Assembly: GCF_003696235.1 (NCBI RefSeq)
Contig: NZ_RFFJ01000005.1
Coordinates: 1 to 64,000, forward strand
Source of the DNA: Streptomyces triticirhizae
Lineage (GTDB): Bacteria; Actinomycetota; Actinomycetes; Streptomycetales; Streptomycetaceae
Reading direction: 5' to 3'
DNA length: 64,000 nt
In this document: positions 24,842 through 31,074 of the stretch, one piece after another
Numbering within the stretch: the first letter of the stretch is position 1
How the letters are laid out: every line of letters begins with the position of its first letter
Made by a program: the position numbers and the translations under genes
Notes under the pieces: model-generated
Database searches by the model: none
What the model saw: the letters and a program-made list of their open reading frames with translations, nothing else
What the model was told of the DNA's origin: nothing

Positions 24842-26305
24842 ATGAGGACTGCTTACCGAGTGGAGACCGTGCGCGCCGCCGAGAGCGCGCTGATGGCCAG
24901 GCTCCCCGAAGGCACGCTGATGAACAGGGCCGCCGCAGGACTGGCCGCCGCCTGCGCCGAGTTGCTGCGGCCCGGCCTCGGCCGGCGCACCGTCGCCCGC
25001 GTGGTGCTGCTCGTCGGCGGCGGGGACAACGGCGGCGACGCGCTGTTCGCCGGCGCCCGGCTGGCGCGGCGCGGCATCGGCGTCAACGCGCTGCTGCTGG
25101 CACCCGACCGCGCGCACCCGGCGGGGCTGGCCGCGCTGCGGGCGGCGGGCGGGCGCTGTCTCGCGGTCGCCGACATCGCGCCCGGCGCCCTGACCACGCT
25201 GCTGGGGCGGGCCTCGATGGTGGTGGACGGCATCACCGGCATCGGCGGCCGGGGCGGACTGCGGCCGGTGGCCGCCGAGTTGGCGGAACGGGTCACGGCG
25301 TCCGGCGCCCCCGTCATCGCCGTCGACCTGCCCAGCGGCATCGACGCCGACACCGGCGAGGTGCACGGGCCGGTGCTGCCGGCCGCGCTCACCGTGACCT
25401 TCGGCACCCTCAAGCCGGGGCTGCTCGTCGACCCGGCGCGGCAACACGCCGGCGAGGTGCGGCTGGTGGACATCGGGCTGCGCCCGCTGCTGCCCGTCGA
25501 GCCCGAGGCCGCGGCGCTCACCCCGGCCGAGGTGGCGGCGCTGCTGCCGAGGCCGACCGGCGAGAGCGACAAGTACCGGCGGGGCGTGCTGGGCGTCGCC
25601 GCCGGCTCCGCCCGCTACCCGGGCGCGGCCGTGCTCACCGTCGGCGGGGCGCTCCACGGCGGGGTCGGCGCGGTCCGCTACGCGGGCCCGGCCCACGGCG
25701 CGGTGATCGCCCGTCACCCGGAGACGCTGGTCAGCCCCGGCACCCCGGCCGAGGCCGGGCGGGTGCAGGCGTGGGTGGCCGGGCCGGGACTCGGCGACCA
25801 CCCGGAGGCGGAACGGGTGGTGCACGAGGTGCTGGCAGCCGACGTTCCGCTGCTCCTCGACGCGGACGCGCTGCGCGGCCTGGACCCGGCGCGGGTCCGC
25901 GCCCGTTCGGCGCCGACGCTGCTCACCCCGCACGCGGGCGAGGCGGCGGCGCTGCTGGGCGTGGCGCGGGAACGGGTGGAGTCGCGGCGGCTGGCCTCCG
26001 TGCGCGAACTGGCCGAACGCTTCGGCGCCACCGTGCTGTTGAAGGGTTCGACGACGCTGGTCGCCGATCCGGCCGGGCCGGTGCTGGTCAACGAGACCGG
26101 CACGCCGTGGCTGGCGACGGCCGGCAGCGGCGACGTGCTCTCCGGGCTGGCGGGCGGACTGCTGGCCGCCGGCCTCGCGGCCCGCGACGCGGGCGCGGTC
26201 GCCGCGCACCTCCACGGCCTGGCGGGCCGCGCGGCCCCGATGCCGGCGACGGCGTCCGGCGTGACGGACGCCCTGCCGACGGCGTGGCGGTCGCTGACGG
26301 GGTGA
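24842..26305 (+). CDS. nnr: Bifunctional NAD(P)H-hydrate epimerase / ADP-dependent dehydratase
   Basis: Nnr repairs hydrated NAD(P)H: the N-terminal YjeF_N domain epimerises R- and S-NAD(P)HX and the C-terminal carbohydrate-kinase-like domain dehydrates the S form. The N-terminal domain (about 1-215) shows GGGDNGGDAL and VIAVDLPSGIDADTG. The C-terminal domain (about 225-487) shows KYRRGVLGVAAGS, AWVAGPGLG, LTPHAGE and TAGSGDVLSGLAGGLLA. The 487-residue length fits the fusion. It diverges from alr. Confidence 0.95.
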   Translation: MRTAYRVETVRAAESALMARLPEGTLMNRAAAGLAAACAELLRPGLGRRTVARVVLLVGGGDNGGDALFAGARLARRGIGVNALLLAPDRAHPAGLAALRAAGGRCLAVADIAPGALTTLLGRASMVVDGITGIGGRGGLRPVAAELAERVTASGAPVIAVDLPSGIDADTGEVHGPVLPAALTVTFGTLKPGLLVDPARQHAGEVRLVDIGLRPLLPVEPEAAALTPAEVAALLPRPTGESDKYRRGVLGVAAGSARYPGAAVLTVGGALHGGVGAVRYAGPAHGAVIARHPETLVSPGTPAEAGRVQAWVAGPGLGDHPEAERVVHEVLAADVPLLLDADALRGLDPARVRARSAPTLLTPHAGEAAALLGVARERVESRRLASVRELAERFGATVLLKGSTTLVADPAGPVLVNETGTPWLATAGSGDVLSGLAGGLLAAGLAARDAGAVAAHLHGLAGRAAPMPATASGVTDALPTAWRSLTG

Positions 26306-26364
26306 CGGCTGGCGGCTTTCGGGGGCTGCCGGCCGGCACCCGGACACGACCTAGGCTGCGGTCC

Positions 26365-26889
26365 ATGCACAGTCCCAGGGCGGGGTCCGACGGTGCCGGT
26401 GGCCGGTCCGACGTCGAGGTGGCGCTGCGCGGCGGCCCGGCGGCGGTGGCCGACCCGTTCGGCGGGGAGGTCTTCGGCACCGACGGAAGGACCGCCTGGG
26501 CCCGGGCCGCCGGGCCGCTCGACCGGGGCGACGCGCCCCTGGCGCCCACCCCGGCCACGCGGCTGGTCAACCTCGACCCGCCGTTCCCGAACGCGCCCGG
26601 CTTCCGGGCCGTGGAACTGCTGGCGCACCCCGGGTTCGTCGAACGGTTCCGGCCGCGCGTCGTGTCCTCCACCCTGGCGCTGGCCTGGGTCGCCGCCGGC
26701 CGGCGCGCGGCGTATGTCACCGACGGCGGCGACCTCGCCGACAGCGTGCACTTCGCGGCGGGCATCGCGCTGTGCCGGGCCGCCGGCTGCGTGGTCACCG
26801 ACATCGACGGCGCCGACGGCCCCGGCCGGGGCCTGGTGGCGGCGGCCGACGCGGACACCCACGCGGAACTGCTCTCGCTGCTGGCCTGA
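26365..26889 (+). CDS. Truncated inositol monophosphatase-like protein, probably inactive
   Basis: The 174-residue product matches only the C-terminal part of the inositol monophosphatase family. VADPFGGEVFGTDGRTAW corresponds to the YDPF/GE-type strand of full-length enzymes, and RVVSSTLALAWVAAGRRAAY and AAGCVVTDIDG to the C-terminal half. The N-terminal half with the Glu and DPIDGT metal sites is absent. The usual WDxAAG motif is VHFAAG, with His-129 in place of the metal-binding Asp. TAGGCT lies seven bases before the ATG, so a leaderless transcript is possible. It follows nnr by 59 bases. Codon use is normal, so it may still be translated. Confidence 0.72.
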   Translation: MHSPRAGSDGAGGRSDVEVALRGGPAAVADPFGGEVFGTDGRTAWARAAGPLDRGDAPLAPTPATRLVNLDPPFPNAPGFRAVELLAHPGFVERFRPRVVSSTLALAWVAAGRRAAYVTDGGDLADSVHFAAGIALCRAAGCVVTDIDGADGPGRGLVAAADADTHAELLSLLA

Positions 26890-26989: not shown

Positions 26990-27127
26990 ATGACCCGCAC
27001 CCGCACGCTGCTGATCGCAGCCGCCACCGCGACCGTTCTCGCCTTGACAGGCTGTGGAGGCGACGACACCGACGACACCGACGACACGAGTCTGGACGCG
27101 CCCACCTGGGGCGCCACGATCCCGTAG
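26990..27127 (+). CDS. Small lipoprotein, 45 residues
   Basis: The ATG at 26990 gives MTRTRTLLIAAATATVLALTGCGG, a textbook lipoprotein signal with lipobox LTGC at residues 19-22. Only about 23 residues follow, with an acidic Asp/Thr repeat (DDTDDTDD). The mature peptide would be a tiny lipid-anchored tail. I recognise no homologue. GC-rich third positions continue up to the TAG stop. No strong ribosome site precedes the start, so the call rests mainly on the signal peptide. Confidence 0.6.
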   Translation: MTRTRTLLIAAATATVLALTGCGGDDTDDTDDTSLDAPTWGATIP

Positions 27128-27263: not shown

Positions 27264-27638
27264 TCAGGCCCCCGCCTCCGCGATGACCACCGCCGACGCC
27301 ACCCCCGCGTCGTGGCTCAGGGAGACGTGCCAGCACGTCACTCCCAGCGCCGCCGCGCGGGCGGCGACCGTGCCGCGTACCTCCAGGCGCGGCTGGCCGG
27401 ACTCGGTCTGGATCACCTCCGCGTCCGTCCAGCGCAGGCCGCCGGGCGCGCCCAGCGCCTTCGCCAGGGCCTCCTTCGCCGCGAACCGCGCGGCCAGGGA
27501 CGCGACGCCGCGTCGTTCCCCGCTCGGCAGCACCAGTTCCGCCTCGACGAAGAGCCGCCGCGCCAGCTCGGGGGTGCGTTCCAGGGACCGCGCGAACCGG
27601 TCGATCTCCGCCACGTCGATACCCACGCCCACGATCAT
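27264..27638 (-). CDS. acpS: Holo-[acyl-carrier-protein] synthase
   Basis: AcpS transfers 4'-phosphopantetheine from CoA to a conserved Ser of acyl carrier proteins. The 124-residue product has the Mg/CoA-binding N-terminus [15 protein letters not shown], the signature [13 protein letters not shown] and the C-terminal [13 protein letters not shown]. Its ATG overlaps the stop of the upstream GlmS-like gene (ATGA), so the two are cotranscribed. It lies near coaA, which catalyses the first step of CoA synthesis. Confidence 0.96.
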
Positions 27639-28354
27639 GCGCGCAGCACGCCCCCCTCGGCGTCGGTGATCTCGCACCGCACCTCGTCCCATTCGCGGCG
27701 CAGCAGCACCACCTGTTCGCCGGGGGTCGTGTCCAGCGAGACGACCTCCTGCGGTCGCTGCGCCTCCAGCGCCGCCGCGTCGGAGGCGAGCAGCGCCTCG
27801 CCGGCGCCCAGCCCCACCGTCAGCGGCAGGCCGCGCCGCGCCGCGACCACGGTGTCGGGGGCGTCCGCGTGCAGCGCGAGCAGCGCGAAGTCGCCGTCGA
27901 GCGCGCGGCACAGCTGGCGCGCGGCCTCGGCCGGCTCGTACGCGGAGGAGAACGCCTCGGCCAGCAGCCGGGCCACCGCCTCGCCCACGGTTCCGGTGCG
28001 CAGCGGGTGGCCGCGTTCGGTCAACTCCTCGGCCAGCGCGGGCCCGTTGGTCGGCTCCCCGATCAGCGCGACGGCCACCCGCCCGGCCTCGTCCAGCTGG
28101 GGGCCGGCGTTCTCGGGGGCGTCCCGGGCGTCGCGGCTGAGCCCGATGCCGCTGCCGCCGGTGGGCAGCGGGTGGGTGCGCAGCGCCTCGGTCAGCGCCG
28201 GGAGGGAGTCGGCCGGCGGGGAGCAGGCCAGGCCGCCGTCGGCCAGCACCGCGACGCCGCAGGCATCGTGCTCGAGCCGGCGCACCCGGCCGAGCTGGGC
28301 CAGCACCACGTCGAGGGCGGACTGGACACCCGTGTACCCCACGATCCCGCACAT
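27635..28354 (-). CDS. Stand-alone, degenerate GlmS-type glutaminase domain
   Basis: The 239-residue product begins [21 protein letters not shown], the N-terminus of glucosamine-6-phosphate synthase, and ends like its glutaminase domain ([28 protein letters not shown]). It stops there: the two SIS isomerase domains (about 350 residues) are absent. The nucleophile Cys-2 is kept, but the glutamine-binding motifs are lost. The HTRWATHG loop is replaced by [11 protein letters not shown], the HNG(II) oxyanion motif by ALIGEPTN, and the SETDTE stretch by GTVGEAV. Aminotransferase activity is impossible and glutaminase activity unlikely. The tight ATGA overlap with acpS shows a stable arrangement. 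Function unknown. Confidence 0.8.
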
Positions 28355-28417
28355 GCGGGCAGCGTATCGGGGTCGCCGCACGGGGTGCCAAGCCGGACGC
28401 GACAACCGGACGGAACA

Positions 28418-29512
28418 ATGAGGCGCGTGGCAACCTCACCCTCCGAGCAGCCGAACCCTCCCGAGCCGTCGAACCGACCCGAAGACCCGAACCGACCCGA
28501 AGACCCGAGCCGCCCCGAAGACCCGAGCCGGCGCGCGCGTTCGGGTCGCGCGCCGGCGCGCGGAACGCGCCCGCAGCGCGCCACGCGCGCCACGCGCCCC
28601 ACCCCCTACGTGGACCTCTCCCGCGCCGACTGGGGCCGCCCCAGGGACCGGGCCGCATCGCCGCTGACCGCCGAGCAGGTGGAACGGCTGCGCGGCCTCG
28701 GCGACGTGATCGACGTGGCCGAGGTGCGGGACGTCTACCTGCCGCTCTGCGACCTGCTGCGGCTGCACATCGACGCGGCCCGCCAGCTGCGTGCCCGGGT
28801 CGGCGGCTTCCTGGGCGGGCCGCAGCCGGCGACACCGTTCGTCGTGGGCATCGCGGGCAGCGTGGCCGTCGGCAAGTCGACGGTGGCGAGGCTGCTGCGC
28901 GCGCTGCTGGCGCAGGGCCCGGAGGGCTACCGGGTGGCGCTGGTGCCGACCGACGGATTCCTGCTGCCCAACGCCGAGTTGGAGCGGCGCGGCCTGATGC
29001 GCCGCAAGGGCTTCCCGGAGTCCTACGACCGGCGGGCGCTGACCCGTTTCGTGGCGGAGGTGAAGTCGGGCCGGGCGGAGGTGAGCGCGCCGGTCTACTC
29101 GCATCTGGTGTACGACATCGTGCCCGGTGAGCGGGAGACCGTGGTGCGCCCGGACATCCTCGTTCTCGAAGGGCTGAACGTGCTCCAGCCGGCGCCGCCC
29201 GGACGGATCGGGGTGGCGGACTACTTCGATTTCTCGGTGTATGTGGACGCCCGCGTCGCCGACATCGAACGCTGGTATCTGGAACGATTCCTGGCGCTGC
29301 GGGCCACCGCGTTCCAGGACCCGCGCTCCTTCTTCCGAAGGTATGCGGAGATTCCCGAGGAAAAGGCGTTGGACTTCGCCAGGAAGACCTGGCGCGAGGT
29401 GAACGAGCCGAATCTCGTGGACAATATCGCCCCGACCAGGGGTCGGGCCTCGCTGGTGCTGCGCAAGGGCCCCGACCACGCGGTCGCCGGGCTGCGGCTG
29501 CGCAAGCTCTGA
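28418..29512 (+). CDS. coaA: Pantothenate kinase (CoaA type I)
   Basis: CoaA phosphorylates pantothenate with ATP, the first and feedback-controlled step of CoA synthesis. The kinase core starts near residue 65 ([13 protein letters not shown]). It has the P-loop [15 protein letters not shown], the [10 protein letters not shown] motif, [10 protein letters not shown], the SHLVYD and ILEGLN-type segments, and a full C-terminus. Residues 1-60 are a Pro/Glu/Arg-rich tail that includes three copies of RPEDP(N/S) from an 18-bp tandem repeat. The ATG at 28418 precedes this tail; a later GTG (MRRV) is possible. It is divergent from the GlmS-like gene and convergent with glmM. Confidence 0.94.
28472..28525 (+). 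repeat. Three tandem 18-bp repeats in the 5' end of coaA
   Basis: The unit AACCGACCCGAAGACCCG occurs twice exactly (28472-28507) and once with two changes (28508-28525). It encodes three in-frame RPEDP-containing hexapeptides, so copy-number changes would keep the frame. Confidence 0.9.
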
Positions 29513-29575: not shown

Positions 29576-30943
29576 TCAGCCCAGCGCGGACTTGACCACG
29601 TCGGCCAGTCCGCTGGCCACGGCCCGCGCCTGCGCCGCGTCCGCCGCCTCCACCATCACCCGCACCAGCGGCTCCGTCCCCGAGGGCCGCAGCAGCACCC
29701 GGCCGGTCTCGCCGAGCTGCCGCTCGGCCTCGGCCACCGCCTCGGCCAGCTCCCTGCTGTCGGCGACCCGGGCCCGGTCCACGTCCCGCACGTTGATCAA
29801 CACCTGCGGCAGCCGCACCATCACCCCCGCCAGCTCCGCCAGCGGGCGGCGGGTCGCCGCCACCCGGGCGGCCAGCAGCAGCCCGGTGAGGGTGCCGTCC
29901 CCGGTGGTCGCGTGGTCGAGAACGATCACATGGCCGGACTGCTCGCCGCCCAACGAGAAGCCGCCGTTCCACATCTCCTCCAGCACATAGCGGTCGCCGA
30001 CGGCGGTCTGCCGCACCCGCAGGCCCTCGCGCTCCATGGCGAGCGTGAAGCCCAGGTTGGACATCACGGTGGAGACCACCGTGTCCTCACGGAGCGTGCC
30101 GGCCTCCTTCATCGCGACGCCCAGCACGGCCAGGATCTGGTCGCCGTCCACCTCGGCGCCGGTCCGGTCGGCGGCCAGGCAGCGGTCCGCGTCGCCGTCC
30201 ACCGCGATGCCCAGGTCGGCCTCGTGGGCGAGCACCGCGTCGCGCAGCGCGTCCAGGTGGGTCGAGCCGCAGCCGTCGTTGATGTTGAGCCCGTCCGGGT
30301 CGTCGCCGATGCTGATCACATCGGCGCCGGCCCGGGCGAACGCCTCGGGCGCGACCCGCGAGGCCGCGCCGTGCGCGGTGTCCACGACGATCCGCAGGCC
30401 GTCGATCCGGTTGGGCAACACCCCGACCAGGTGCGCCACATAGGCGTCGAAGCCCTCGGTGTGCTCGGTGACCCGGCCGACGCCGGCGCCCACCGGGCGG
30501 TCCCAGGGCTCGCCGGCGGCGTGCTCGCGGTAGACCGCCTCGATCCGGTCCTCCAGCTCGTCGGCCAGCTTGTGGCCGCCGCGCGCGAAGAACTTGATCC
30601 CGTTGTCCGGCATCGGGTTGTGGCTGGCGGAGAGCATCACGCCGAAGCTGGCGCCCAGCGAGCCCGTCAGATACGCCACCGCCGGGGTCGGCAGCACGCC
30701 CACCCGCAGCACGTCCACGCCCGCGCTGGCCAGCCCGGCGACCACGGCCGCCTCAAGGAACTCGCCCGAGGCCCTCGGGTCGCGGCCCACCACGGCGGTG
30801 GGCCGGCGACCGCACGTACTGTCCCGACTCTCCGTCCCGGCCAGCACCCGCGCCGCCGCGACGGACAGGCCGAGCGCCAGCTCCGCCGTGAGATCCGCAT
30901 TGGCGACACCGCGTACCCCGTCCGTACCGAAGAGTCGTCCCAC
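29576..30943 (-). CDS. glmM: Phosphoglucosamine mutase
   Basis: GlmM converts glucosamine 6-phosphate to glucosamine 1-phosphate for UDP-GlcNAc and peptidoglycan synthesis. The 455-residue product starts [15 protein letters not shown] and has the phosphoserine loop [15 protein letters not shown], the metal site DGDADRC, the sugar-binding GGEQSGH and the phosphate-binding [13 protein letters not shown] chose the GTG at 30943 with an ideal GGAGGA site; the frame upstream contains the rpsI terminator and is not coding. It lies downstream of rplM-rpsI, as in other streptomycetes. Confidence 0.97.
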
Positions 30944-31013
30944 TGTCTTTCCTCCGAGTTCACCCACGCGGCCCGTGACCGATATTCCCTGTCGATTCCC
31001 CGTTGACCCTATA

Positions 31014-31054
31014 AAAGGGGACGCCCCGGCAGCACGGAAGTGCTGCCGGGGCGT
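31014..31054 (-). terminator. Rho-independent terminator of rplM-rpsI
   Basis: A perfect 15-bp stem (31021-31035 with 31040-31054) closes a four-base loop and, on the minus strand, is followed by CCCCTTTTAT. It starts about 20 bases after the rpsI stop and separates it from glmM. Confidence 0.92.
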
Positions 31055-31074
31055 GAGCAAAATCCTGCCGGCGA

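Follow-up and report, generated by a model that had tools for sequence, protein, structure and literature searches.

The window analysed here, the whole 64,000-nt stretch of Streptomyces triticirhizae DNA, carries on its minus strand, between coaA and acpS, a gene that corresponds to the front half of glmS (Table 1). Its reading frame opens with an ATG at 28354 and closes with a stop codon at 27635–27637, and the encoded protein begins with MCGIVGYTG, Cys-2 included. The protein aligns with residues 1–197 of E. coli GlmS. GlmS family models are matched over their first 209–210 positions, at 118.3 and 104.5 bits against cut-offs of 381 and 418, and the lower score places the protein outside TIGR01135, of which it covers positions 1–209 of 607. 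The isomerase half, with its two SIS domains, is missing: the frame stops at residue 239, and acpS follows. The protein passes Pfam GATase_7 (class II glutamine amidotransferase), with 29.3 bits against a gathering score of 25, and Cys-2 stands in the place of the N-terminal nucleophile of that class. The first-pass annotation had described a 239-residue GlmS N-terminus with Cys-2, devoid of the isomerase half and joined to acpS by an ATGA overlap; its coordinates proved exact and the overlap is real. A G-rich stretch within the C-terminal tail may be the ribosome-binding site of acpS. Between nnrD and acpS lies a 175-aa frame (26362–26889, plus strand) that matches only positions 122–264 of the 271 in the Pfam inositol monophosphatase model (45.8 bits) and is a half-length member of that family or a remnant of one. 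A short plus-strand frame at 26990–27127 (MTRTRTLLIAAATATVLALTGCGG...) encodes a lipobox-like LTGC and several DDT repeats in a row, and its product is possibly a small lipoprotein.

Table 1. Features around the standalone pseudo-glutaminase gene; positions are those of the window.
Feature	Position	Strand	Remarks
nnrD-type NAD(P)H-hydrate dehydratase/epimerase	24842..26305	+	convergent with acpS in all six carriers
acpS, 4'-phosphopantetheinyl transferase	27264..27638	-	Pfam ACPS
Stop/start ATGA overlap of pseudo-glutaminase gene with acpS	27635..27638	-	4 bases
Standalone pseudo-glutaminase gene (GlmS1 glutaminase half)	27635..28354	-	239 aa plus stop
C-terminal tail, residues 223-239	27638..27688	-	common to the six standalone genes; differs from aligned full-length copies
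Site of TDTE, residues 122-125	27980..27991	-	Asp replaced by Val
Site of HNG, residues 97-99	28058..28066	-	Asn replaced by Ile, Gly kept
Site of lost HTRWATHG motif, residues 72-79	28118..28141	-	Arg and middle Ala survive
TACGCT, candidate -10 box (TANNNT), 6 nt before ATG	28361..28366	-	leaderless-type, common with full-length glmS1 genes
coaA, pantothenate kinase-like	28427..29512	+	Pfam PRK; divergent from pseudo-glutaminase gene
glmM, phosphoglucosamine mutase-like	29576..31060	-	start codon uncertain

Typical genomes of the genus have a 615-residue GlmS1 at this same position, with uncut full-length copies ranging from 613 to 617 aa. A match was found in 60 of 61 genomes surveyed, and for the 36 relatives of the same genus the frame with the best match is at least 544 aa long, the shortest (in G008) being cut by a contig end. 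The surroundings are also shared. Downstream of glmS, acpS is present in all seven full-length loci that were laid out (about 3 kb further on in G013). The coaA gene is divergent before glmS in five of the six full-length loci uncut by a contig end (it was not found in G005), and glmM and rpsI were found on the coaA side in four. Because position and neighbours are those of full-length glmS1 in relatives, the gene in the window is glmS1 minus its isomerase half. The acpS, coaA and glmM neighbourhood, taken by the first-pass annotation as a hint of a new role, is thus inherited from ordinary glmS1 and constitutes weak evidence for a new acpS-related role. The same holds for the overlap. All six standalone genes (see below) overlap acpS by four bases, compared with 5 of the 15 full-length copies with measurable spacing (of 27). 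Since full-length glmS also precedes acpS, and in part overlaps it, the linkage is not special to the short gene; being ancestral, it was rejected as telling in itself. Outside the surveyed set, none of the best 80 of 530 matches in named genomes is more than 54% identical to the protein. The best of them, from Streptomyces sp. CB01580 (54%), belongs to a glmS frame of 615 aa, and DNA of that glmS region is up to 86% identical over 2282 bases to same-genus loci. Among 20 matches listed of 295 in plasmid records, none exceeds 38% identity; 18 are annotated as glmS and two lie in records without a gene there.

The standalone form occurs in 6 of 392 genus genomes, the window's included, so that the orthologues of like architecture and acpS linkage envisaged at first pass exist in five other genomes. 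A strict protein search of the 392 genomes (E up to 1e-58) returned four, counting the window's own; a profile search of 362 genomes added G210, and G145 emerged when acpS was inspected in genomes that had given no good match. The six are thus the window's genome (G000), G061, G180, G144, G210 and G145. The 392 genomes were then scanned for a pattern that combined the common tail with the start of acpS and tolerated up to 3 mismatches, and these six genomes and no others were hit; since the members themselves supplied the pattern and the genomes are draws from a larger group, other tails or genomes may hold further members. Applied to 121 genomes drawn from 17 genera of the family, the pattern found the window's genome only. 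Identity to the window protein ranges from 87% down to about 51–52%. Of three other members scanned for GATase_7, G210 and G144 pass, and G145 gives no match. The six are monophyletic with a local support of 0.95 in a FastTree tree of five neighbouring proteins, which is a neighbourhood tree and not a whole-genome one. Given this grouping and the one C-terminal junction that they have in common, a single truncation event in their ancestor is likely. The convergent arrangement of nnrD and acpS occurs elsewhere, where nnrD was placed, only in G035, G071 and G129.

How much of the glutamine site remains? The six proteins were aligned with six intact GlmS1 copies. The residues compared, which we take to be the catalytic set of GlmS, are conserved in the intact copies. 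Trp-75 of HTRW, Thr-77 of ATHG and the Asn of HNG are gone from all six members, the Asn through five different replacements. Other residues have persisted: the Gly of HNG in all six, the Arg of HTRW in four, and Cys-2 in five, the window included. The Asp of TDTE, lost in the window, is kept in two members, one of which (G145) has it beside a deletion where the alignment is uncertain. In G144 Cys-2 is Arg, a change that a single base could account for and that, the genome being a draft, might be an error. The early claim that HTRWATHG, HNG and TDTE have been lost is therefore right for the motifs as such and too sweeping for their residues, as the HTRWATHG Arg and middle Ala and the HNG Gly are still there. 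The motif region has been altered differently by lineage, through substitutions, deletions and an insertion, and through every indel among the six members the frame stays open, with no frameshift or stop. The most degraded member is that of G145 (L194, 815–1504), where a deletion has removed about 19 residues from what was the glutamine site and no Pfam model is matched; both the frame and the acpS overlap are nonetheless intact. A conserved protein under selection whose catalytic residues have been lost is a pseudoenzyme, here one formed by domain loss from GlmS; the loss of glutaminase activity itself is predicted from the residues. No description of it was found in the literature searched (SCO4740, truncated or pseudo-glutaminases, glmS with acpS), a search that left subscription journals mostly uncovered.

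Selection was measured in three close genomes only (G000, G180 and G061), deeper pairs being saturated at synonymous sites. In a codon model, dN/dS of the pseudo-glutaminase gene is 0.086–0.105, and a value of 1 is rejected (2dlnL 44.8–102.2). The neighbours give 0.124–0.127 for nnrD, 0.038–0.064 for acpS, 0.014–0.034 for coaA and 0.017–0.032 for glmM. Because third-position GC is high (94–97% in the six members) and can inflate dS in such a model, the estimate was repeated by simple counting. This gave 0.26–0.32 for the pseudo-glutaminase gene, 0.28–0.33 for nnrD, 0.13–0.16 for acpS, 0.05–0.11 for coaA and 0.07–0.11 for glmM; neutral simulations had means of 1.25 and 1.56, with 1% quantiles of 0.73 and 0.91. 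Codons 25–222 by themselves have a dN/dS of 0.25–0.30, reached by 0 of 300 neutral simulations in each of the three pairs. Within them, constraint is weakest at the former active site (codons 66–125) in two of the three pairs, with values there of 0.40, 0.44 and 0.10 (0, 2 and 0 of 300 simulations). Codons 25–65 give 0.17, 0.22 and 0.16 (0, 0 and 8 of 300) and codons 126–222 give 0.22, 0.27 and 0.50 (0, 0 and 15 of 300), the 8 and the 15 being weak values from the closest pair. Codon-position composition is kept in all six members. Together these results strongly support the view that the protein sequence is held by purifying selection, in line with the first-pass argument against random decay. 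That annotation would have given up its reading if close relatives had a full-length glmS here and this copy evolved neutrally: the relatives do have one, and the gene is not evolving neutrally. Judged by its sequence, the pseudo-glutaminase is nevertheless less constrained than the same domain in intact GlmS1, with a deep-pair identity of 60% versus 86%. The corresponding controls, members versus intact GlmS1 genomes, are 84 versus 82% for acpS, 73 versus 71% for nnrD and 73 versus 87% for coaA.

AlphaFold2, with 37 GlmS relatives in the alignment, predicts an Ntn glutaminase fold with a pLDDT of 94.3. Prediction from the single sequence fails (pLDDT 35.5), so the predicted fold rests on homology. 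The model superposes on the E. coli glutaminase domain with Z 32 and an rmsd of 1.9 over 227 residues. In the fold ranking, GlmS glutaminase domains (Z ~32) are followed by human GFAT-1, PurF, EgtC, asparagine synthetase, glutamate synthase and beta-lactam synthetases. The gene has the position and promoter box of GlmS/GFAT (TIGR01135, NF001484; Streptomyces GlmS1), and its product has the same N-terminal domain and predicted fold; the product differs in that it has no isomerase half, has a destroyed glutamine site and scores far below the family cut-offs. The isolated glutaminase domain of E. coli GlmS (1xff, 240 aa) has nearly the same boundaries and illustrates that the domain can exist alone; it is, however, a domain of a working enzyme, in complex with glutamate, whereas the window has a natural gene for the domain alone, without the site. 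EgtC (4zfj), a class II Ntn hydrolase of ergothioneine synthesis, is likewise a natural single-domain protein of the class II fold (Z 21), but it is described as a hydrolase and is only 15–16% identical to the pseudo-glutaminase. Beta-lactam (1jgt) and carbapenam (1q15) synthetases have the fold in common as well (Z 15 and 11), and their glutaminase-like domain is described as non-functional. In these synthetases the dead domain is fused to a synthetase, whereas the pseudo-glutaminase is a dead domain alone.

The upstream region retains the promoter-like box of glmS1. A TANNNT box ending 6 or 7 nt before the ATG was present at all 57 distinct same-genus glmS1-type starts caught by the start pattern, among them those of the window, G180, G061, G210 and G145, versus none of six same-genus GlmS2-type starts. 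Over all starts caught, the box was found at 65 of 97, compared with 13 of 1940 control offsets. The start of G144 (ATGCGC) was missed by the pattern and has the same box. Passages of PMC4895711, and likewise of PMC3160421, describe TANNNT as the -10 motif of Streptomyces and report that leaderless mRNAs arise from 21% of the primary start sites in S. coelicolor. With a box so near its ATG, the pseudo-glutaminase gene is probably transcribed without a leader, as the first cistron of a pair in which acpS is coupled to it. No TANNNT was found 4–9 nt before acpS in any of the six members, in 16 of 17 full-length loci or in 7 of 8 loci without glmS1; since the latter two groups are alike in this respect, its absence in the members is no proof that their acpS has no promoter of its own. 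Matches to a DasR-like operator before glmS genes, sought with a 12-base core, were at chance level, and RNA structure across the junction with acpS was unremarkable (z -1.58). The DNA of the first 24 codons (28283–28354, minus strand) is identical in G000, G180 and G061. Across the gene as a whole, the window differs from either close relative by a synonymous change in about one codon in five, and by our reckoning from this average about five synonymous changes would be expected in the 24 codons. This segment may be under constraint at the DNA level, perhaps from the divergent coaA promoter, or at the RNA level. Given the invariant start and the G-rich tail, both ends of the gene may be constrained as DNA.

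Other GlmS genes in these genomes bear on what the short gene might do. The window's genome does have another full glmS, a question raised at first pass: it lies elsewhere, on C387 (734 bits), keeps all three motifs and is of the second type, being 85% identical to locus 2 of G036 and 47% to locus 1. In the literature, a passage of PMC13170358 uses the name GlmS2 for SCO2789, and one of PMC4398421 names both glmS1 and glmS2. In each of the other five members a single match exceeds the GlmS cut-off. A standalone SIS protein at G000:C101:10655–11662 (L002) scores 207.6 bits to the GlmS isomerase half, and similar SIS matches occur in many genus genomes with one or two full GlmS. Sixteen genomes were picked for their apparent lack of glmS1. 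G145 turned out to be a member and G198 to have a full copy beside acpS; G159 and G192 lie outside the count of acpS loci without glmS1. In the remaining 12 of the 16, acpS stands without any trace of glmS1 in its flanks (up to 1.5 kb a side), and a profile search for remnants in the coaA–acpS gaps or acpS flanks of ten of these twelve gave a best E of 0.41. All 12 genomes have a single match above the GlmS cut-off. Because they are scattered over several places of the neighbourhood tree, glmS1 seems dispensable and acpS does not in general need the frame. G147 (L195), a genome with no glmS1 next to acpS, has a glmS1-like TAGGCT box 7 nt ahead of its acpS start at 1498, an arrangement that looks as though the promoter of glmS1 had been joined to acpS by a deletion.

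What, then, is the short gene kept for? The evidence strongly supports a course of events in which, in the ancestor of a small Streptomyces clade, glmS1 lost its isomerase half in frame, leaving a complete glutaminase domain. The glutamine site then eroded while a GlmS2-type enzyme stayed as the full glucosamine-6-phosphate synthase; the shortened gene has kept the promoter-like box of glmS1, and it overlaps acpS by four bases. As a leaderless first cistron it would be translated in step with acpS, and its product would fold as an Ntn glutaminase domain, hydrolyse no glutamine and act by binding. We give this reading, a retained pseudo-glutaminase that acts non-catalytically, a probability of roughly 0.55. 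The likeliest partner would be the co-translated AcpS, served as by a chaperone or regulator, with GlmS2 as a second candidate. Its place ahead of GlmS2 rests on the four-base overlap, since PMC10666635 describes overlaps of this kind as coupling translation and as enriched among subunits of complexes. Counted against the reading as a whole are the ancestral adjacency of acpS, the presence of the overlap in full genes, the faster evolution of the pseudo-glutaminase than of the GlmS1 domain and the 12 genomes that keep acpS without glmS1, together with the dependence of the confident fold on intact homologues, the restriction of the selection estimates to three close genomes and the weak closest-pair values for parts of the gene. 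A stronger version is offered tentatively and is on balance doubtful: the dead domain would be a dedicated, co-translated partner of holo-ACP synthase that sets AcpS folding or activity, perhaps senses a glutamine- or amino-sugar-like ligand, and ties carrier-protein activation to cell-wall precursor or nitrogen status.

The main rival, possible and still rather unlikely, is that the frame has been kept for its promoter and the coupled acpS start, and that the protein is constrained no further than is needed for it to fold and be harmless. The leaderless-type box at the same 6–7 nt spacing as in glmS1 fits this idea, as do the invariant first 24 codons in the trio and a tail that overlaps the G-rich stretch before acpS; the missing TANNNT before acpS also fits, yet it is equally missing in non-members. 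Against such an expression relic stands the protein-level constraint that codons 25–222 show by themselves. Moreover, in two E. coli pairs treated in part of PMC10666635, 15 nt of the upstream gene were enough for coupling, which speaks against a whole protein being kept for coupling alone, the twelve genomes without a glmS1 remnant near acpS get by without the frame, and in G147 acpS itself lies behind a TAGGCT box. The first-pass annotation also entertained an Ntn-type hydrolase acting on a new substrate; such a hydrolase or amidase, in which Cys-2 would work within a remodelled pocket, is improbable. The residues that persist (Cys-2, the HNG Gly and the HTRW Arg) and the resemblance to the standalone hydrolase EgtC would suit it. 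It is disfavoured because Cys-2 is Arg in G144 and the HNG Asn is lost in all six, with five different replacements; the weak constraint on the former site in two of three pairs and the deletion in G145 point the same way. A split GlmS, in which the glutaminase half would work in trans with a separate isomerase-type protein such as the 376-aa SIS frame at G000:C101, draws on a SIS match of 196–209 bits in all six members. However, SIS matches of the same kind are found in G182, where two full GlmS are encoded, and in many genomes that have no half gene, and the window's half lacks residues of the usual glutamine site; this very improbable reading was rejected on the distribution of the SIS match. 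Neutral decay, with the gene a pseudogene not yet broken, would account for the many active-site residues lost and for evolution faster than that of intact GlmS1. It was likewise rejected, and is the least probable reading, contradicted by the selection tests: dN/dS far below 1, a value that no simulation of the gene body reached, codon-position composition kept in six members, and no frameshift or stop across a deep clade.

The retained pseudo-glutaminase is a clean natural case in which a domain has been released from its enzyme, has lost its active site and has been kept nonetheless, probably through one event and in a defined clade. An intact sister enzyme is present, and the genus genomes that lack the gene serve as natural controls. 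The case offers a way to test whether, in general, pseudoenzymes are retained for what they bind or as leaders for expression. Should AcpS prove to be the partner, the pseudo-glutaminase would be an added regulator at the step where fatty-acid and polyketide carrier proteins are activated in antibiotic producers.
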